The notes under the pieces were generated by a model. It did not search any database. It worked only from the letters and a program-made list of their open reading frames with translations, and had not been told where the DNA came from. The position numbers were made by a program, and so were the translations under genes. DNA of 42,373 nt from contig CAMCTV010000007.1 in the NCBI GenBank assembly GCA_945878635.1, positions 1-42,373 on the forward strand. Direction: 5' to 3'. Position 1 is the stretch's first letter, and each line of letters begins with the position of its first letter. The DNA comes from Chryseobacterium gleum. Lineage in GTDB: Bacteria > Bacteroidota > Bacteroidia > Flavobacteriales_D > Sanyastnellaceae. Positions 12,431-32,376 of this stretch are shown in pieces.

Positions 12431-12456
12431 AAAACCCTCTACGCGCAGAGGGTTTT
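12431..12456 (+). terminator. Intrinsic terminator after rpoC
   Basis: AAAACCCTCT (12431-12440) pairs with AGAGGGTTTT (12447-12456) around a 6-nt loop and runs into a T tract. It separates the RNA polymerase genes from the receptor operon starting at 12475. Confidence 0.92.
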
Positions 12457-12474
12457 TTGTTGTAACTTGTAACG

Positions 12475-14430
12475 ATGTTGAGTAGAGTCTTTTTAATCAT
12501 TTTATTACTTTTTTGTAAATCAATGTTTGCTCAGCCAAACATTGATAGTTTGCTACTTCGTAAAGAGATAGTACAAATGTTGGCCATTGATTCAATGGCA
12601 AGAACTGGAAGTTCAATGACTTCCTTGATTGGATTTTCGGAACGGGATAGTCGTGAAATACCGGGTGATATTTTGGTCGTAACAGCAGAGGAAATTGAAG
12701 CGTTGGGGGCAACAGATCTTCTGGATGTAATTCTCTACATGACATCTACTTCGCTGGGTCGAGATGTGGAAGATGGCTTGGGCGTTGGAGTTCGAGGATT
12801 GTGGGCCCAAGAGGGTAAGGTTTTATTTATGTTTAATGGAATTCCATTAAATGACCTGGATTATGGCACTTATCTATTGGGAGGGAGATTGCCGCTGCAG
12901 ATGGTGAGTCGTATTGAGTTTAACTTTGGCCCAGGCTCTGTGAAATATGGTGGTACTGCTGCTTTAGGAGTTATTAATGTTATTCTAAAAACGAATTCTG
13001 AGTTTTCAGGTGGCGCTATTCGTTCAGACTTGAGTTTCTCGAATAAAACTTTCGATCGCCGGTATATTGGTTTTGTAGGTAATTATGAATTAAATGATAA
13101 TTACAAGATGACCATTCAGGTGAATTCCGGAAAAATTAGGAAAAGTACTCGGCTTCAAAAGTTGGAGAGAATTGGACAGATTAGCTGGAAGGATAGTTCA
13201 GATGTGGATTGTAACAATGTTTTTATTGGATTAACCAAGGGTAAATACAGAGGCACATTTTATTATTCAGATTTTCAGTCTCAAATTTCAGATGAACCTC
13301 AGCTTTTGCTGATGTCTACTTTGGGAATGGACAATTCTCTCAATTTTAAGTTGTCTGATCATACCAAAATGGAAGTGCAATTTACTTATTTGGATCAACT
13401 TCCATGGATTGATTTGAATACAACAGACTCAAGTTTGATTGGCTCCAATACGCATGCTCAGCGCATTAATCAGAATATTGTTTTCAAAAGTAAATTGGCT
13501 AAAAATTTGGATATTGATTATGGACTTCAAGGAACTTGGCAACAATCGACAATTCTTTTAAGAGAAGCTACTTTTGATTACAATGAAAAAAATGAAATCC
13601 GGGTGGGAGGAGGATCTGTTTTTTTTGATGGTTTTTATAAAGGTAGATGGGGAGCACTTTCCTTGGGAGCTAGATTAGAAAGTCACACATTTTCTAAAGT
13701 CCTTTTTGCTCCTCGCCTAGGCTACTCTTTTCAATTTCAGCATTTTTATGTGAAATCATTTGTAGCCCAAGCATTTAAAATTGCCACCATTCAAAATCAA
13801 AATGGTTCCATGTTTACTCAGGATTTGAATAATGAAACTGTTACGTCAATGGAGCTTGAAATGGGGTTGTCTTTCAAATTTTTTGATGTGAAGGCAAATA
13901 TCTTTCGAACAAATGTGATAAATCCAATTTTGTATGTTTTTGATCCTGAGCTAGGAATTGATAATTATATCAATAGAAGTATGGTTGGTTCAGAAGGGAT
14001 TCAATGCACGGCGCGTTTTAAAAGGAATAAGTTTCATTTTACTACTGCTGGTATTCTGAACAGGAATGTTGATCATGCCTTGGTTAAAGAAATGCAAAAT
14101 GAAATGGGAGATATGTACTTCGCATTTCCAAGTTATAAATTCAATTTTTATGGAACCTATCGGGTAACCAAATCGATATCTCTGTCTTTTGGAGGGGTCA
14201 AGCAGGGGGAAGTTCAAGTATGGGATTCAAAACCTATGTCAAATGGTATACTTCTTCATTCAGGCATTGGTGGTCAGTTTCTCAAGAGTAAGAATCTTCA
14301 CCTCAATTTGTTTGTGAAAAACGCCTTGAACAGTGAGTTTTGGGTAGCAAGTGCTTCTGACTTGGATTTGAATCCGATGCCTTTGCTTTCACGACAGATA
14401 CAGTGTTCTGTTCAATATTTATTTTACTAA
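12475..14430 (+). CDS. TonB-dependent outer-membrane receptor, first gene of a SiaABC-like operon
   Basis: The 651-residue protein has a signal peptide (MLSRVFLIILLLFCKSMFAQ), a plug domain at about residues 55-170 (GDILVVTAEEIEALGATDLLDVI, with GVGVRGL, MFNGIPLND and GVINVILKT) and a beta-barrel ending in aromatic residues (SVQYLFY), as outer-membrane barrels do. It is small for the family and lacks the carboxypeptidase-like N-terminal domain of SusC proteins. The substrate cannot be told from sequence. The next gene, a periplasmic-TPR/PP2C protein, starts 7 nt after its stop, so the receptor is probably the surface end of a signalling path, or its target. The start is ATG 18 nt after the rpoC terminator. 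Confidence 0.88.
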   Translation: MLSRVFLIILLLFCKSMFAQPNIDSLLLRKEIVQMLAIDSMARTGSSMTSLIGFSERDSREIPGDILVVTAEEIEALGATDLLDVILYMTSTSLGRDVEDGLGVGVRGLWAQEGKVLFMFNGIPLNDLDYGTYLLGGRLPLQMVSRIEFNFGPGSVKYGGTAALGVINVILKTNSEFSGGAIRSDLSFSNKTFDRRYIGFVGNYELNDNYKMTIQVNSGKIRKSTRLQKLERIGQISWKDSSDVDCNNVFIGLTKGKYRGTFYYSDFQSQISDEPQLLLMSTLGMDNSLNFKLSDHTKMEVQFTYLDQLPWIDLNTTDSSLIGSNTHAQRINQNIVFKSKLAKNLDIDYGLQGTWQQSTILLREATFDYNEKNEIRVGGGSVFFDGFYKGRWGALSLGARLESHTFSKVLFAPRLGYSFQFQHFYVKSFVAQAFKIATIQNQNGSMFTQDLNNETVTSMELEMGLSFKFFDVKANIFRTNVINPILYVFDPELGIDNYINRSMVGSEGIQCTARFKRNKFHFTTAGILNRNVDHALVKEMQNEMGDMYFAFPSYKFNFYGTYRVTKSISLSFGGVKQGEVQVWDSKPMSNGILLHSGIGGQFLKSKNLHLNLFVKNALNSEFWVASASDLDLNPMPLLSRQIQCSVQYLFY

Positions 14431-14437
14431 TGATAGC

Positions 14438-16936
14438 ATGAGGATAAAGTTTTGTTACCTATTTATTGTCTTATTCTTGTTGGCTCCATGTTTCGTTTCT
14501 GCACAGGTCAGAGATTCACTTTTCTTCATGAACGCGCGTTTGGATCAGGGGTTTGAAGTCTTAGCGAAAGGACAGTTGGAAGAGGCATCCAGAATGGGAC
14601 TCCATGTAATGCAGTTTGGTCGAAAAACCAATAACCCTCAACTCTATGCGCAATCTTGTTTATTGCTTTCAGAGGTTGCGTTACGATCTGGAACATATGG
14701 AGATGGTGTCAAGTTTGCTTCAAGAGCAATGGAAAGCGTTCGAGAAATTGATGAATTTTTGTGGTGTAACTTGGGAGTTACTATGGTCGATATTTATTAC
14801 CAGTATGGTGTTGCTGAAAAGGCGATCAGTTTATCTCAGAAGGTTTACAATAAACGAAAATTAACGAGGGATCAAGAAATGCGGCTTTTGCAGACATGGA
14901 CCTGGGCATTGTTGTCTATTGATGAATCTCAATCTGCAGAGTCATTACTTAATCAATATTTTGAATCAAAACAGGCTGATTTTTATAAAAATCCTACACC
15001 TTATTTGAGTCTTTTTGAACTTTGGTTAGATGCCAAAATAAATAATAACAAATACAATGAAGCTTATTTGCAGATCATTAATTTGATATCGATTACTGAT
15101 AGAGAGGCATCTGATGAGAAGCTATTAACGCTTCTCAACAAGGCCGGCGAATTGTGCATTCATCTAAAAGATTACAACAAGGCAATTTCCTTTTTTAATG
15201 AAGCCAATCAAATTGGTGAAAGTCGATGGTCAAATCAGGAGAATTATGTACTCTTGAATTTGGCTCGTGCATATTATTGGTCTGGTAATTATGCTCAGTC
15301 ATTTGATATCGCTGAAAAGGCCTTTTACATTGCCGAGAAACATAATCACACATTTCAAAAGGCAATCACAGCAGCATTCATTGCTCGATTGAAAGTGTCT
15401 TCTAATTCCATCTCATCAGCCATAGATTGGGCTAATTTGGCTTATAGATTGAGTGAAGAAATTCACGATTTAGCCCTTCAATATCAAGTGTCACTTTTGC
15501 TTTCTGAACTGTTTACTTTGAATAGTGAATTTGAGCGAAGTGCAAAATATAAGCTTAAGGCTGAGCAAATTAATGAAAAGATTTCTCTGGTCAAACAAAA
15601 TGAAAAATTGAAAAAGGCAAATCTGAATATAGAAATTGCCAACGCAGAGTTTGAAGCCATCATGGAACTGCAAAATTTTGAAAAACAGCGGTTGTTGTTG
15701 AATGACAAATTGAAGAAAATTCAATTTGAATCGGAAAGGCAACAAGAGAATTATAGGTTTGAACTCCAAATGGCCAATGAGAGCATTGAAAAGGAAAGGG
15801 CACTTAATCGGATTCAAAATTTGGAGGCTGAGACGTTAAGCCAAGCTCAACGGTATCAAATTTCAGAATTAGAAAATAAGAGGAAATCAAGTTTACTAAG
15901 CATTTCAGAATTGACCATTCAGAAACAGGACATTGCCAATAAAAATTTGAGTTTAAAATTAAAAAACGATAATCTTGCTGCGCAGGATGAATTGAATAAA
16001 AGGGAGATTGAATTTAGAAAAAAGCAGTCTGTTTTGGGTATTATTTTTACTGGAGGTGTGCTATTGATTTTGATTATTATTGTTTTCTTCTTCAGAAAAA
16101 CAAGAAGTCAGAATAAGATTATTGAACGTAACAATAAGGAGATTCAAGGTATTAATCTTGAGTTGGGAGAAAAGAACAATGAAATTGTTTCAGGAATACA
16201 ATATGCCAGTAAATTTCAGGAGATGGTATATCCAAAGGAATCCGATCTGAAAAAGTATTTTCAAGATGGATTTATCATACACAGACCATTGGAAATGGTG
16301 AGTGGAGATTTGCCCTTTGTCCTTTATGTCAATAATAATGTTTATATTGCTGCTGTGGATTGCATAGGCCATGGTGTTAGTGCCTCCATGTTATCCATTA
16401 TGACTTATTTTGGATTGACTGACATTATCAGAAATAATCCCAATGAAAATTGTGCTCAAGTCCTTAAACTTTTACATCAAAGGTTGGTTTTGCGACTGTC
16501 TCAGAGAGAGTCAAGAAGTTATATCGTTAGTGTCGATCTTTCCATTGTGAAATTAGATTTGGAATCAAAAAAAATGCAGTTTGCAGGAGCTAATTTGCCA
16601 TTACTTTTATTGAGGAGAGGAGAGGTAAGTATGTTCAAAGGAGCACACATTTCAATTGGTGAAGATGTGTCTGATAATCGTCTTGAGTTCATGAATTTTG
16701 ATTATCAGTGTTTGGAGGGAGATGAACTTTATTTATTCAGTGATGGTTTATTTCATCAATTTGGTGGGCTTGAAGGGAAACAAAAATTGTCAAAGAAGCG
16801 TATCATGAAAAGGTTGGATGAAGTTCATCAAACGTCTTTTGCTGAGCGAAAAGCTCAATTGAATAAGTTGTTTGATGACTGGAAAGGAGAATCACCCCAA
16901 ACAGATGATTTGGTAATTCTAGGAATGAAAGTATAG
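14438..16936 (+). CDS. TPR sensor with coiled coil, membrane span and cytoplasmic PP2C (SpoIIE/SiaA-like) phosphatase
   Basis: The 832-residue protein reads as a transmembrane sensor-phosphatase. A signal peptide (1-23, ending VSAQ) is followed by helical TPR-like repeats (about 25-370), a long coiled coil (about 375-525), one membrane span (about 531-552, VLGIIFTGGVLLILIIIVFFF region) and a PP2C domain (about 585-832). Metal-site motifs are present: VSGDLPFV, AAVDCIGHGVSASML, LYLFSDGLFHQFGG and QTDDLVILGMKV. Such domains remove phosphate from Ser/Thr of partner proteins. The SiaB-like kinase and SiaC-like protein follow within 3 nt and by overlap. In Pseudomonas SiaA the sensor part is different, so the TPR input is a variation. 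The TPR part is inferred to be periplasmic. Confidence 0.87.
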   Translation: MRIKFCYLFIVLFLLAPCFVSAQVRDSLFFMNARLDQGFEVLAKGQLEEASRMGLHVMQFGRKTNNPQLYAQSCLLLSEVALRSGTYGDGVKFASRAMESVREIDEFLWCNLGVTMVDIYYQYGVAEKAISLSQKVYNKRKLTRDQEMRLLQTWTWALLSIDESQSAESLLNQYFESKQADFYKNPTPYLSLFELWLDAKINNNKYNEAYLQIINLISITDREASDEKLLTLLNKAGELCIHLKDYNKAISFFNEANQIGESRWSNQENYVLLNLARAYYWSGNYAQSFDIAEKAFYIAEKHNHTFQKAITAAFIARLKVSSNSISSAIDWANLAYRLSEEIHDLALQYQVSLLLSELFTLNSEFERSAKYKLKAEQINEKISLVKQNEKLKKANLNIEIANAEFEAIMELQNFEKQRLLLNDKLKKIQFESERQQENYRFELQMANESIEKERALNRIQNLEAETLSQAQRYQISELENKRKSSLLSISELTIQKQDIANKNLSLKLKNDNLAAQDELNKREIEFRKKQSVLGIIFTGGVLLILIIIVFFFRKTRSQNKIIERNNKEIQGINLELGEKNNEIVSGIQYASKFQEMVYPKESDLKKYFQDGFIIHRPLEMVSGDLPFVLYVNNNVYIAAVDCIGHGVSASMLSIMTYFGLTDIIRNNPNENCAQVLKLLHQRLVLRLSQRESRSYIVSVDLSIVKLDLESKKMQFAGANLPLLLLRRGEVSMFKGAHISIGEDVSDNRLEFMNFDYQCLEGDELYLFSDGLFHQFGGLEGKQKLSKKRIMKRLDEVHQTSFAERKAQLNKLFDDWKGESPQTDDLVILGMKV

Positions 16937-16939
16937 GAA

Positions 16940-17440
16940 GTGAAACAGTCAGTAGTGAAATATCAGGTAAATTTAACTTCATTGGAGGTTGAATCTGTTA
17001 TTGATAAATTTTCAGCAGAAGCTAGTCAGTTGAATGTCCACAAGCGTTTTTTAAAAATTGCGGTGAACTGTCTTGTTGAACTTATTGATAATGCTTTCCG
17101 TTATTCTTCACCAGTTGCGGATGTTTTGGTTGAAACGCAGTTAACAGAGGAGTTGGTTACCTTTGTTGTAGTTAATCAATCCACCTTGAGCGATGTTGAA
17201 GTGTTGATGCTTCAGGTAGAAAGTTACAAGAGAATGTCTGAAGAGGAACTAGATTTTTTATACAGACAGAAATTATCAAATAACATCTTTAATGAAAGAG
17301 GTGGAGCAGGTTTAGGGTTGTTACAAATTATGCGTAAAGATTGTTTGAAAGAGATTGTAATTTCCCCGAAATTAGGTTTGTCCAGCAATGTTTATTGTAA
17401 AGTAGAATTGAAATTGAAAAAATGCAAACACGATGAGTGA
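16940..17440 (+). CDS. SiaB-like protein kinase (HATPase fold)
   Basis: The 166-residue protein resembles SiaB-family kinases, which have the histidine-kinase ATPase fold but phosphorylate a Ser/Thr of SiaC. Visible are an N-box (VELIDNAFRYS, with E47 and N51) and a glycine-rich lid motif (GGAGLGLLQI, 121-130). The start is GTG, 3 nt after the phosphatase stop; no ATG fits. The 3' end overlaps the SiaC-like gene by 8 nt, which suggests translational coupling and fixed stoichiometry. An anti-sigma-factor kinase is the alternative reading, but the neighbour favours SiaB. Confidence 0.8.
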   Translation: MKQSVVKYQVNLTSLEVESVIDKFSAEASQLNVHKRFLKIAVNCLVELIDNAFRYSSPVADVLVETQLTEELVTFVVVNQSTLSDVEVLMLQVESYKRMSEEELDFLYRQKLSNNIFNERGGAGLGLLQIMRKDCLKEIVISPKLGLSSNVYCKVELKLKKCKHDE

Positions 17441-17807
17441 ACTGATTTTACAAGCGTCTTCAAATACACCCAAAGTTGTATTTGCTTTGAAAAATGAAAT
17501 TCAGTCTGTTGTAGGATTGTCAACCCCTATAGATTCATTTGAGTTTTATCGTCCATTGATTAAATGGATAGAGGATTATCAAAATCAGATGTCTTCCAAG
17601 ACTGTTTTTAGATTTGAATTGAATTATTTCAATTCATCTTCAATGAAAGCCCTGTTGTGGCTGATACAAGCCATCGCAAACGGTATCAGTCAAGGGAAAG
17701 ATTGGACTATTGAGTGGGTTGTAACGGAGGAAGATGAGTTTATGGAGGAAGCAGGAGAGTCTTTCCAATCCTTAATTGATGTACCCATTTCTATTGTTAG
17801 GATGTAA
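17433..17807 (+). CDS. SiaC-like regulatory phosphoprotein (DUF1987 family)
   Basis: The 124-residue protein matches the SiaC pattern: STP near residues 30-32, FEFYRPLIKWIEDY (37-50), the FELNYFNSSSMKALL core (61-75) and the acidic end EEDEFMEEAGESF. SiaC in Pseudomonas is phosphorylated by SiaB on Thr68 and dephosphorylated by SiaA, and controls a diguanylate cyclase. Here the same region carries serines (N67-S68-S69-S70), so Ser68 is the likely phosphosite. That is an inference by family alignment from memory. Overlap with the kinase gene supports a switch pair. The stop abuts the stop of the convergent threonine aldolase gene. Confidence 0.82.
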   Translation: MSELILQASSNTPKVVFALKNEIQSVVGLSTPIDSFEFYRPLIKWIEDYQNQMSSKTVFRFELNYFNSSSMKALLWLIQAIANGISQGKDWTIEWVVTEEDEFMEEAGESFQSLIDVPISIVRM

Positions 17808-27516: not shown

Positions 27517-29241
27517 TTAGTTACAACCACCTTCTGGGTTACCTACAAACAATGCGCTGGTGAACTCATTGTTTGGGAATTGCAAAGCCATTCCTGGACA
27601 ATTCCATGGAGAAGATCTGATTCTTAAATTAGAATTGCTTTCGATGGCAATTCGGCGGAATTGATCCAACCACTTTCCTTCACCGATGGTTTCCAAACGG
27701 TATTCTTTTCTGGCTGCGGCTTTTACTTGATCGACAGAAGATGAGGTAGATAAAGAATTGTCTTGGCTGTAGGCTCTAGCGCGAATGGCATTGATGTCAG
27801 CAATGGCCTCACTTAGTCGACCAGTTTGCGCATAGGCAATGGCCTCAGCACGCATCAACATCATTTCTGTTTGGTACATCAAAGGAATATTGAACGCTAC
27901 TTTGTCTTGGAATTTGGTCAACGTGATTTGTGATCCGCTGGTTGACATCCAAGCTTTTCTTTTGTCTGCGCTGTTCTGGTTGATCAATTGCACAAAAGGA
28001 ACCTCAACCTCATTGCTTGAAGCAAAAGATGCATCATTCCATAAAGTTAAGTTAGGAGGCAGCACGCCCGATGCATTGTAGTTTCCAATGAAATCATCGG
28101 TTCTCACATCGTTGCTAAAGCTAACAATTTTGAAAATGGATTCTTTGTTGTTGGAGGCTGTCAAAGCAGGCACACCGCCGGTCTCAGCAGTGAACGTTGT
28201 CAGAACTTTGCCAGCATTGTTTAATGAACCTCCAAATGAGTAAACAACTTCTCCGCCGGGATTCAAAACATCTAAGCTAATGTTGGATGTTTTTCCTCCA
28301 GGAACATCGCAAATGAGTTGATAGGTTACTCCGCTGATCATCGGAACTGATAATTCAACCGGAATGGTGTCATTATTGGCATTGTCAAATGTGGCAACGA
28401 CACCGCCGTTTCCAGTGATGGAAAGAGAGGTGTTGTTCCAAACACTGGTTGCATTTAGATTCAAACGAATGGTGTATTCAATCAAAGTGGGGAATCGATC
28501 AATGGAGTATTGCTCAAAGTTGTTGGCATTGATGACTTCATCACTGTATTGAATGGCTTTGTTGTAATCGCGCATTTGGAAATAGATCATGGCCAAAGCT
28601 GCTTTGGTAGCATTAGCATTAGCATAATTTCCATTGGATGATGGCAGTGTATTGGCTGCAGTTTCCATCTCTGAAACGATGAAGTTGTATACTTCCGCAA
28701 CTGTGTTTCTGGCTAGTGGCTCGTTGGAAGCTTTGTCACGAATAACAATACCCAAATGGCTGTTGTCTGAAGTGTAACCGAATGGTTGCGCCCAAATCTT
28801 TACGACATGCCAATGACAGAAAGCACGGATAAAGCGAGCCTCAGCTTCCATTCTTGAGCGATCAGCATCTGATAATCCTTCGATCAAATCAAAGTTCTCT
28901 AGAAGTGAGTTGCAGCGATAAATGGCATAATAAAGATCTGCGTATACACCATTGGTAGTAGGTGTAAAGAAGTTGGTTTCTTTGTTATAGATCGCTTGAA
29001 AGTCCAATCCAATGGGCGTTGCCAAGTTATTGCTTAAAAGTTCAGCCAAGTTTTGATATGAGCCGTCGAACACATTGGCCATCACATCGTAACAACTGTT
29101 CAATAATTTTTGTGCATCTTCAGGTGTCTTTAAAGCATCTTCCGCAAGGATAGCTCCATTGGGAGGGTAGTTCAACATTTTTTCGCACGACACCAATCCC
29201 AAAGTGGCGATGGATGCTGCAATGATGATATATTTTTTCAT
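27517..29241 (-). CDS. SusD/RagB family nutrient-binding lipoprotein
   Basis: SusD proteins are surface lipoproteins that cap the SusC transporter and bind the glycan. The 574-residue protein has lipobox LGLVSC (Cys19), TPR-type helices (about 40-245, with RFIRAFCHWHVVKIWAQPFG and ATKAALAMIYFQMRDYNKAI) and the C-terminal DINAIRARA and KEYRLETIGEGKWLDQFRR motifs. Between the helices and ESIFKI there is an unusual beta-rich insertion of about 105 residues (about 258-363). ATG at 29241 is used; the in-frame TTG at 29253 is unlikely. It lies 12 nt after susC. Confidence 0.93.
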   Translation of the reverse strand: MKKYIIIAASIATLGLVSCEKMLNYPPNGAILAEDALKTPEDAQKLLNSCYDVMANVFDGSYQNLAELLSNNLATPIGLDFQAIYNKETNFFTPTTNGVYADLYYAIYRCNSLLENFDLIEGLSDADRSRMEAEARFIRAFCHWHVVKIWAQPFGYTSDNSHLGIVIRDKASNEPLARNTVAEVYNFIVSEMETAANTLPSSNGNYANANATKAALAMIYFQMRDYNKAIQYSDEVINANNFEQYSIDRFPTLIEYTIRLNLNATSVWNNTSLSITGNGGVVATFDNANNDTIPVELSVPMISGVTYQLICDVPGGKTSNISLDVLNPGGEVVYSFGGSLNNAGKVLTTFTAETGGVPALTASNNKESIFKIVSFSNDVRTDDFIGNYNASGVLPPNLTLWNDASFASSNEVEVPFVQLINQNSADKRKAWMSTSGSQITLTKFQDKVAFNIPLMYQTEMMLMRAEAIAYAQTGRLSEAIADINAIRARAYSQDNSLSTSSSVDQVKAAARKEYRLETIGEGKWLDQFRRIAIESNSNLRIRSSPWNCPGMALQFPNNEFTSALFVGNPEGGCN

Positions 29242-29253
29242 GTTCAATTTCAA

Positions 29254-32200
29254 TTAGAAGTTAGCGGATAGGCGAAGGTTAAAGCTACGCTCTTGCATTG
29301 GGGTTAAGTATGTTACGTTGGGACTCAAGTTTCTATCTTGAGCGTTTTCAAAGTCACGAACAATTTCAGGATCCAATCCAGGGAAGTTGGTGATGGTGAA
29401 TACATTGGTAACAAAGAATCCCCAGCTCAAGGATTTCAATTTCATGCGCTCAACAATCTCTTTGTCCACATTGAAATCCAAAGAAAGGTTTCTCAATCGC
29501 AAGAAGTCTGCATTGTACATGAACAATGACGTATTCCACCAAGGGAAACCAGTAGGAAGGCCGTAGTTGGTTTCGTTCAAAGTCAATTGTCCATAGGTGG
29601 TTTCATCACCAGGATTTTGCCAACGGTCTAAGATTTCATCTCTCATGTTCCAACCTGTTACAACACCCAATTGACGCTTTGCAGAGGAATCAAAGATTTT
29701 TGCTCCTAAACTGTATGTACACAATGCAGAAAGCGTGATGTTTCTGAAAGTCCATGTATTGGTGAATCCACCATACATTTTGGGCAATCCACTTCCTACA
29801 TATTTTCTGATGCTGTTGTCATAATCATAAGTTTCATCTCCTTCAAGGTCCAGATAAACGGGTTTACCATTGGCAGGATCAATATGAGAGAATTCTACCA
29901 AATAGAATGAACCAATGGGCTTACCAACGATAACACGAGAGTCATTTGTTCCGCCACTTACGGCATCGGGTGTGTAATTACCGATGCTCACCAACTCATT
30001 GTAGTTGTATGAGAAGTTGGCCGTTGTTTTCCAAGACAATTTGCGATCTTTCAACCAGTTTACTGTGGTGGTTAATTCCAAACCTTGGTTTTTCACCTCA
30101 GCTACGTTGTCCCAGAAATTGCTGAAGCCAGTTGAGGCAGGCAAGCTAACATTCATGAGTACATCACGGCTGTATTTTCTGTAACCTTCAAGTATTACGC
30201 TCAAACGATCTTGCCAAAATCCCATTTCAATAGCAAACGAAGAGTTGTTGGTTGTCTCCCATCTCAAATCCGCATTTCCGCGTTGCGTAGGGAAGATGAT
30301 GGGTTGTTGATTGTAGAACAAACCATTGTCTGCTTGTGAATAGGTAGAATATTGCGCATTGGCAGGAATGCTGGAGTTACCTGTTAAACCAAAGCTCGCG
30401 CGAACTTTCAAGAAATTCATCACTTTGTTGTCTTTCAAGAATTTTTCTTCGCTAGCGATCCATGCCGCGGAAACAGATGGGAAATTACCAAATTTATTGT
30501 TGGCTCCAAATCGAGAAGATCCATCGCGGCGGAAAGTGGCATCCATGTAATACTTCTCTTTGTAGTTTAAACTTCCTTTGGCGAAGAAGCCAAGGAAAGT
30601 GAATTGTTCTCTGTTGTAGGTGTTGCGGATTTTTTCACCGGTCATGTCAACATCTGTAAAATCTTGAACACCTTGCTCAAGGTTCGCGTAGTAGTCATTG
30701 TAAGCACTGGTGGTGCTGGTTTGCAATTCATGACCTACCAATAAGTTTCCATTGAGGTGTTCATGCAATTCTTTGTTGTATTCCGCAGTAACGTTATAGC
30801 TGTAATTGCGGACAATTCTCTGATCACTGCTGAAATTACCGAGGCTATTGTTTTGATCTAGTGCGGCTGGATTTAATCTGTTCTCTCCAATGTGCATGTA
30901 ATCCAAACCACCTGTAGCAATGACAAACAAGTTTTTCATGGGGTTGTAAATCAAACGACCGGTATTGATCAAACGGCTTTCAACGTTAGCCCAGCGGCGC
31001 AACTCGCGCATGGCCACAGGATTTTTTGAACCACCAAACTCATCTTTCCAATAGAAATAATCTCCGGGTTTATTGACTACATTTCCTGAAGCGTCAAAAG
31101 TAGTGTCTTGGTGATAAACAGGATAGTAGGGAAGGGCATTGGACATGGCATCTCCTAATCCGCCTGACCAAGCTGCGTCAATACGGTCATTGGTACCTCT
31201 GGTTCCAGACAATGAAAGATTGACTTTCAATTTTTTACCCAACTTGAATTCAGGGTTAACGCGAACAGACAATCGCTTGTAGGCATTGCCAATCATGAAA
31301 CTTTCATTGTTATCATATCCCAATGAAAAATAGACATTGTGCTTTTCGCCACCATAACGAGCACCAAATTGCGCACCGTACTTTGAACCTAAACCTACGG
31401 TTTGTGAAACCCAATCGGTATTGGTTTCCATGGCCTTCATATAAGCTTCTTCTCTGACCGCAGCCGCATCTGTGGCAGTTGACATATTGGGTAACCAAAC
31501 ATATCCGGTTCCGCCATCATTTTCCCAAGCCTCTTGGCGAATGGTCAAATACTCTTCTGTATTCAACATGTTGGGACGCGATGCAGGTTGAGATGTTCCA
31601 TTGGTCAAGTTCAAATCAAAGTTCCATCCTTTTTTGCGGGCTTTTTTGGTGGTGATGATGATAACGCCATTGGCTGCACGAGAGCCGTATTCACCTGCGG
31701 CTGCGGCATCCTTGCGTACTTCTACGTTTTCGATATCTGCGGGATTGATTGAGGCCAATGGATTGTTGTTCATTGCTCCTGAATTGCCACGCAAGAAGTA
31801 ATCATTGGTAATCGGAATACCATCAACGATGTACAAAGGATCTCCACCTGCTGAGATAGAACTGATGCCTCGGATTCGAACAATAGACCCTGAACCTGCC
31901 ATTCCCGAACCTTGAGAGATTTGAAGACCTGCTGCTTGCCCTTGCAAGGCAGCTTCAAAAGAAGGAGTTCTTACTGCGGTGACATCTTTTCCGTTGATTT
32001 TTGAAACAGCGCCTGTTGTGGGCTTATTTCTTTCGATACCATATCCGACAATCTCTAAGTTGTCCAAGGTGATGTCATCATTGAGCATCTTTACGTCTAG
32101 CGGCAATTTTTGTCCTGCAATTAAATTGATGTTGGATTCAAAGTTTTTAAAACCAATCAATGTGTAACTTACAGTGTGACTACCAACAGGTAAATCCAAC

Positions 32201-32376
32201 GTGTACTTGCCGTTGACATCCGTTTGCGTCCCTCTGGCCAATTTGTTTACAGAAACGACCACCCCCGGCAAGGGTGCGTTCTTTTCGTCTTTCACTGTTC
32301 CACTGATGCTTTGGGACCAAGCTTGAATGCTCAGACCTGCCAGCAACAGCAACATCAGTCGTTTTACTTGAATCAT
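29254..32376 (-). CDS. SusC/RagA family TonB-dependent transporter
   Basis: The 1040-residue outer-membrane protein has a signal peptide (ending QAWSQ) and the carboxypeptidase-like N-terminal domain (SGTVKDEKNAPLPGVVVSV, about 25-100). The plug domain shows QGSGMAGSGSIVRIRGISS, DPLYIVDGIP and the family box GVIIITTKK. The large barrel ends in NLRLSANF. With SusD it imports oligosaccharides using TonB energy. The gene follows the amylase by 21 nt, so amylase, susC and susD form one operon, and alpha-glucan oligomers are the likely cargo. Confidence 0.96.
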   Translation of the reverse strand: MIQVKRLMLLLLAGLSIQAWSQSISGTVKDEKNAPLPGVVVSVNKLARGTQTDVNGKYTLDLPVGSHTVSYTLIGFKNFESNINLIAGQKLPLDVKMLNDDITLDNLEIVGYGIERNKPTTGAVSKINGKDVTAVRTPSFEAALQGQAAGLQISQGSGMAGSGSIVRIRGISSISAGGDPLYIVDGIPITNDYFLRGNSGAMNNNPLASINPADIENVEVRKDAAAAGEYGSRAANGVIIITTKKARKKGWNFDLNLTNGTSQPASRPNMLNTEEYLTIRQEAWENDGGTGYVWLPNMSTATDAAAVREEAYMKAMETNTDWVSQTVGLGSKYGAQFGARYGGEKHNVYFSLGYDNNESFMIGNAYKRLSVRVNPEFKLGKKLKVNLSLSGTRGTNDRIDAAWSGGLGDAMSNALPYYPVYHQDTTFDASGNVVNKPGDYFYWKDEFGGSKNPVAMRELRRWANVESRLINTGRLIYNPMKNLFVIATGGLDYMHIGENRLNPAALDQNNSLGNFSSDQRIVRNYSYNVTAEYNKELHEHLNGNLLVGHELQTSTTSAYNDYYANLEQGVQDFTDVDMTGEKIRNTYNREQFTFLGFFAKGSLNYKEKYYMDATFRRDGSSRFGANNKFGNFPSVSAAWIASEEKFLKDNKVMNFLKVRASFGLTGNSSIPANAQYSTYSQADNGLFYNQQPIIFPTQRGNADLRWETTNNSSFAIEMGFWQDRLSVILEGYRKYSRDVLMNVSLPASTGFSNFWDNVAEVKNQGLELTTTVNWLKDRKLSWKTTANFSYNYNELVSIGNYTPDAVSGGTNDSRVIVGKPIGSFYLVEFSHIDPANGKPVYLDLEGDETYDYDNSIRKYVGSGLPKMYGGFTNTWTFRNITLSALCTYSLGAKIFDSSAKRQLGVVTGWNMRDEILDRWQNPGDETTYGQLTLNETNYGLPTGFPWWNTSLFMYNADFLRLRNLSLDFNVDKEIVERMKLKSLSWGFFVTNVFTITNFPGLDPEIVRDFENAQDRNLSPNVTYLTPMQERSFNLRLSANF

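Follow-up and report, generated by a model that had tools for sequence, protein, structure and literature searches.

The window (the whole 42,373-nt stretch of DNA analysed here) comes from an assembly of 2.35 Mb in 170 contigs that is 93% complete, and genome-wide checks in this genome were made as family searches. At 12475-17807 it holds an operon of four tightly packed genes, encoding a receptor, a phosphatase, a kinase and a phosphoprotein (Table 1). When the open reading frames were re-read, gene positions and intergenic spacing (7 nt, 3 nt and then an 8-nt overlap) matched exactly those given in a sequence-only reading of this DNA; the kinase ORF starts at a GTG, with an alternative GTG at 16955. 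The hairpin that precedes the operon was read directly, and it is missing from an automatic terminator scan because the T-run behind its full stem is short. The same element lies 3' of rpoC in two other genomes, G001 and G006. As it ends 16 nt 5' of the receptor ATG, little room is left for a promoter and leader.

Table 1. Features of the operon and of its 5' flank in the window.
Feature	Position	Strand	Description
Intrinsic-terminator-type hairpin with T-run	12433..12458	+	between rpoC and receptor gene
TonB-dependent receptor	12475..14430	+	651 aa; signal peptide, plug, barrel; without STN or CarboxypepD_reg
SiaA-type PP2C phosphatase	14438..16936	+	832 aa; predicted signal peptide, periplasmic TPR solenoid and coiled coil, one TM, cytoplasmic SpoIIE/PP2C
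SiaB-family GHKL kinase (DUF6272)	16940..17440	+	166 aa; N-box ELIDNA, G-box GGAGLG
SiaC phosphoprotein	17433..17807	+	124 aa; phosphoacceptor position Ser68 (Thr68 in P. aeruginosa)

Proteins of the operon

The receptor matches the Plug family in a Pfam search (PF07715, 3.7e-13) and the barrel family (PF00593) at sub-threshold level only. Its AF2 model, of moderate confidence (pLDDT 66), resembles FepA, Cir and BtuB in Foldseek; together, profile and model point to a plug domain in an outer-membrane beta barrel, as in a TonB-dependent receptor. Pfam and NCBIfam searches detected no STN domain, no clear TonB box was recognised in the N-terminal tail, and inspection of the operon neighbours by eye revealed no genes for sigma factors or FecR-like anti-sigma partners. 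The operon itself contains neither an inner-membrane transporter nor a periplasmic binding protein. Elsewhere in the window (27517-32376, - strand), a gene for a 1040-aa plug-bearing receptor is followed by a 578-aa gene; by eye, the two resemble an ordinary SusC/SusD-type pair.

Pfam profiles detected TPRs and a SpoIIE domain (PF07228, 1.4e-15) in the phosphatase, and residues 559-831 match the NCBIfam SiaA model at 7e-33, which is below the cut-off of that equivalog. Its AlphaFold model consists of a TPR solenoid at ~30-380, predicted with high confidence, a long helix or coiled coil up to ~597, and a PP2C domain at 600-832, with the coiled coil predicted to cross the membrane at ~532-552. 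As this is the single hydrophobic span besides the signal peptide, and lies after the solenoid, prediction places the TPR array in the periplasm and the PP2C domain in the cytoplasm. The best PDB match of the model is the SiaA-PP2C of Pseudomonas aeruginosa (6k4e; TM 0.85 on the target), which the PP2C domain also matches by sequence at 1.1e-21. The acidic residues D624, D641, D769 and D823/D824 are conserved; the protein is a SiaA-type PP2C, predicted to be membrane-anchored, that keeps its metal-binding acidic residues.

The third protein passes the Pfam cut-off for DUF6272 (PF19788, 1.9e-10), although it reaches only 32.9 bits (4e-8) with the NCBIfam SiaB-family model NF038262, whose cut-off is 85, and for that reason we consider it a putative SiaB-family GHKL kinase that is a divergent member. 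It has no significant sequence match in the PDB, where superantigen-like matches at E ~0.08 are noise. The fourth protein matches PF09345 above cut-off (1e-29), and its Ser68 aligns to the phosphorylated Thr68 of P. aeruginosa SiaC. This position is Ser or Thr in 27 of the 28 aligned homologues, and the protein is classed as a SiaC (DUF1987) with a phosphorylatable residue at 68. The domain calls made earlier by eye (receptor, TPR/coiled-coil/membrane PP2C, SiaB-like, SiaC-like) are thus supported by profiles and predicted fold, with the last two proteins falling inside the SiaB and SiaC families.

Two further observations concern this gene set in relatives. In G001, the operon behind rpoC consists of the receptor, a 994-aa membrane protein (L049:5298-8282) that fuses a SiaA-type phosphatase to a C-terminal SiaB-type kinase domain, and SiaC. 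SiaB seems to be absent from G043 (L056), but this probably results from the ORF filter and was left out of the argument.

Co-inheritance of receptor and phosphatase

Within a set of 100 relatives' genomes, the window's own included, seven others carry a receptor orthologue (E <= 1e-20), three of the same genus (G001, G005, G006) and four of three other genera of the family (G012, G031, G013, G026). In a set of 60 genomes, the best eight phosphatase matches were those of the window and of the same seven genomes. The first five stand well clear of other proteins, the last only narrowly: the last-ranked protein, from G012, matches at 6e-50 over residues 51-831, and the next unrelated one at 7e-48 over 436-832 only. 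The receptor gene lies directly 5' of the phosphatase gene in the window, G001, G005, G012, G013, G026 and G031. In G006, the receptor contig breaks off within the first part of a TPR protein gene, and phosphatase, SiaB and SiaC genes start at the end of another contig; receptor and phosphatase genes are adjacent wherever contigs allow.

The surroundings of the pair differ between genera. The operon sits directly behind rpoC in genus g1, and the set adjoins a rimO-like gene (named by eye) in G013 and G026. In G013, of genus g8, receptor and phosphatase are both placed between rimO and SiaB, whereas in three other genomes of genus g8 (G032, G052, G059) and in G022 only SiaB and SiaC are found between rimO and ftsY (the latter identified by Pfam), receptor and phosphatase both being absent. 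These sister genomes retain SiaB-SiaC in the same place, so the receptor-phosphatase pair behaves as a unit. In G012 and G031 the pair is followed by a histidine kinase, and SiaB-SiaC lies beside ftsY on a different contig; in genus g7 receptor and phosphatase share one contig and SiaB-SiaC is on another. SiaC proteins from all these loci group together (support 0.98), apart from the family's other SiaC paralogues. The simplest description is that of two units, receptor with phosphatase and SiaB with SiaC, which are usually joined.

A receptor profile searched against 399 genomes of the order gave strong matches in 12, seven of the above set and five of family f9, and eight of these 12 loci, the window included, are phosphatase-linked. 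One of the five f9 genomes, G149, thus of another family, has the receptor gene directly before that of a TPR-PP2C protein of 849 aa, which aligns to the window's phosphatase over residues 246-832 (8e-52). The phosphatase-linked receptors all fall into a single clade (support 0.82, or 1.0 without G149). A phylum sample gave looser receptor matches in seven other genomes, none with a PP2C beside it, and TPR-PP2C proteins without a receptor neighbour are common in the order. Altogether, the receptor-phosphatase pairing is real, conserved and restricted to a small lineage of uncultured Flavobacteriales. It is therefore not peculiar to this genome, as adjacency recurs in other genomes and genera; a link throughout Bacteroidota, which the sequence-only reading had raised for survey, was not found in these samples.

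Partners of the wider receptor family

In the remaining four f9 genomes the receptor lies beside a gene for a kinase-type sensor, and in three of them a YfiR-like protein precedes it. Farther afield, receptor, ABC_sub_bind protein and HAMP-PAS histidine kinase stand in a row in Elusimicrobia, one bacterium has receptor, ABC_sub_bind and an MCP, and in Cytophagales the receptor is accompanied by a YfiR-like protein. Counting same-strand genes within two genes of the receptor, a signalling or periplasmic partner was present in 26 of 44 receptor loci, as compared to none of 20 other receptors of the window's genome. When the phosphatase clade is left aside, 20 of 36 loci have such a partner, which is a histidine kinase, an MCP, or a periplasmic protein of YfiR-like or ABC_sub_bind type. 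These counts come from phylogenetically clustered loci, with a single genome with several contig ends as control; the profiles for YfiR and ABC_sub_bind derive from gene neighbours at these very loci, and those for kinase, receiver and PP2C are general.

Among the individual loci, L084, L085, L089, L095, L097 and L098 (Elusimicrobia) have a receptor relative with an ABC_sub_bind periplasmic protein and then a HAMP-PAS histidine kinase behind it, and an MCP takes the place of the kinase in L074, giving a recurrent set of receptor, periplasmic protein and transducer. YfiR-like (DUF4154) proteins adjoin the receptor relatives of L116, L117, L118, L173, L176, L079 and L090, several of them with hybrid histidine kinases. 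The N-terminal tail of the window's receptor (12532-12670) was compared with those of L117, L118, L173 and L176: a pre-plug motif resembling SLEELL...VAS.K..SLREAPG is kept by many relatives with other partners and lost in the phosphatase-linked receptors.

A candidate signalling module and its alternatives

Overall, we regard the operon as probably, on balance, encoding an outer-membrane-to-cytoplasm signalling module, which is the best explanation of the present observations. This reading is favoured because the receptor and the best phosphatase matches co-occur in eight genomes (the window included), because one site in genus g8 holds either both of them or neither, because the pair stays together apart from SiaB-SiaC in genus g7, and because the same pair recurs in G149, with the linked receptors in one clade. 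Moreover, the fusion of phosphatase and SiaB in G001, the signalling neighbours of related receptors (20/36 against 0/20) and a TPR solenoid that is confidently predicted and placed in the periplasm argue in the same direction. What the sequences show are the genes themselves, their predicted topology, catalytic and acceptor residues that are kept, and the co-inheritance of receptor and phosphatase; from these we infer a contact between receptor and TPR array, a direction of the signal, and dephosphorylation of SiaC by the PP2C of the operon.

In such a module, ligand binding or TonB-driven work would change the periplasmic face of the receptor plug or its N-terminal tail, and the periplasmic TPR solenoid of the adjacent phosphatase would read this change. 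The coiled coil and the single membrane helix would then relay the signal to the PP2C domain, which would dephosphorylate SiaC at Ser68, opposing the SiaB kinase, and unphosphorylated SiaC would bind a target other than a diguanylate cyclase. A path of this kind, independent of sigma factors, had been proposed from the sequence and stands as a hypothesis; the path from outer membrane to cytoplasm is a conjecture from gene order. Against the module, gene pairs can persist through a common ligand rather than through contact, and the many TPR-PP2C proteins of the order that lack this receptor show that such arrays can function on their own. In addition, the orthologous loci are few and mostly MAGs, and the correlation between receptor and phosphatase identities is modest (rho 0.54, 21 non-independent pairs), too weak to serve as an argument.

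The main rival, which we consider credible but rather doubtful, is that the receptor only imports a nutrient and that the TPR phosphatase itself senses the same nutrient or the envelope state, with the switch tuning the response and the genes expressed jointly. The absence from the operon of an inner-membrane transporter or periplasmic binding protein is at odds with this, and so are the co-inheritance of the receptor with the phosphatase, not with uptake genes, and the diverse signallers that adjoin related receptors; nevertheless, the fold is that of an ordinary TonB-dependent receptor, like siderophore and cobalamin transporters, an STN signalling domain is lacking, and TPR-PP2C proteins elsewhere do without a receptor. 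Moreover, in P. aeruginosa, SiaABC responds to carbon availability without a receptor (PMC7647112).

It is improbable that the TPR domain monitors the receptor itself, as an envelope-quality sensor of its folding or TonB energisation, instead of a specific ligand. The N-terminal tail of phosphatase-linked receptors, without the motif that relatives keep, would suit such monitoring, and binding of peptides and partner proteins is a general property of TPR solenoids, but this leaves unexplained why only one of the 21 plug-bearing receptors of the genome is partnered. That the genes are chance neighbours, or were parked behind rpoBC as their place just behind rpoC in genus g1 might suggest, is very improbable and can be set aside, because the gene order is conserved in several genera at different sites (beside rimO in G013 and G026, in other surroundings in G012 and G031, and in G149), and a hairpin separates the operon from rpoC.

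Known systems and output of the switch

Known signalling by TonB-dependent receptors runs via STN domains, anti-sigma and sigma factors. The module proposed here would resemble transducers of the FecA/FpvA type in that an outer-membrane receptor passes a signal inward; it differs in that profiles detect no STN domain, no FecR-like anti-sigma or ECF sigma factor is recognised by eye in the operon, and the inner-membrane partner would be a phosphatase. YfiBNR-type systems, in which an inner-membrane signal enzyme is under periplasmic control, share with it an envelope protein that acts on a membrane-spanning enzyme whose output is cytoplasmic, and related receptors adjoin YfiR-like proteins and kinases; here, in contrast, there is no YfiR-like protein and no diguanylate cyclase, and the output would be protein dephosphorylation. 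TPR-TM-PP2C (SpoIIE) proteins of Flavobacteriales have the same architecture as the phosphatase, but most of them have no adjoining receptor, and the receptor-linked ones are its best full-length matches. A literature search, which is not proof of absence, found no description of a receptor with a Sia switch, nor of TonB receptors with YfiR/DUF4154 or SpoIIE.

The pairing suggests, short of proof, a new route for outside signals into the cell. If true, direct coupling of a receptor to a switch based on a phosphatase would add a second solution to the STN/anti-sigma/sigma route, and the occurrence of the receptor family beside histidine kinases and an MCP suggests that the principle may be general. 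More tentatively, as a possibility somewhat short of probable, we propose a class of sigma-factor-independent trans-envelope signalling in which one TonB-type receptor family is combined with interchangeable inner-membrane transducers, here a TPR-sensing PP2C that sets a SiaB/SiaC switch with a non-c-di-GMP output.

SiaABC(D) is a threonine-phosphorylation pathway of P. aeruginosa (PMC7647112, PMC8457831), whose output runs via the diguanylate cyclase SiaD (PMC8457831). The operon shares with it a PP2C closest to 6k4e, a DUF6272/SiaB-type kinase, a SiaC acceptor (Ser) at position 68 and the gene order A-B-C, and differs in its predicted sensor, a periplasmic TPR solenoid with a coiled coil, in the TonB-dependent receptor that precedes the phosphatase, in the divergence of SiaB, in the fusion of A and B in one relative, and in that no SiaD was detected as SiaC target. 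No GGDEF domain was found in the window's genome, nor one above cut-off in 13 relatives, which include all receptor-bearing ones and G149. With incomplete assemblies as a caveat, the SiaD route is therefore not available here, and the analogy with the diguanylate-cyclase output of Pseudomonas finds no support. What SiaC controls in bacteria without diguanylate cyclases becomes a testable question.

Further Sia genes occur outside these loci. A second SiaC gene of the window's genome (L061:4399-4779, contig C108) adjoins a gene for a 1000-aa ABC transporter, with no receptor, SiaA or SiaB beside it. In other genera of the family (L121-L127), a separate set is composed of a ~100-aa ORF, a double-domain SiaB (~365 aa) and SiaC; most of these loci also have a TPR-PP2C gene next to the set, on the other strand.
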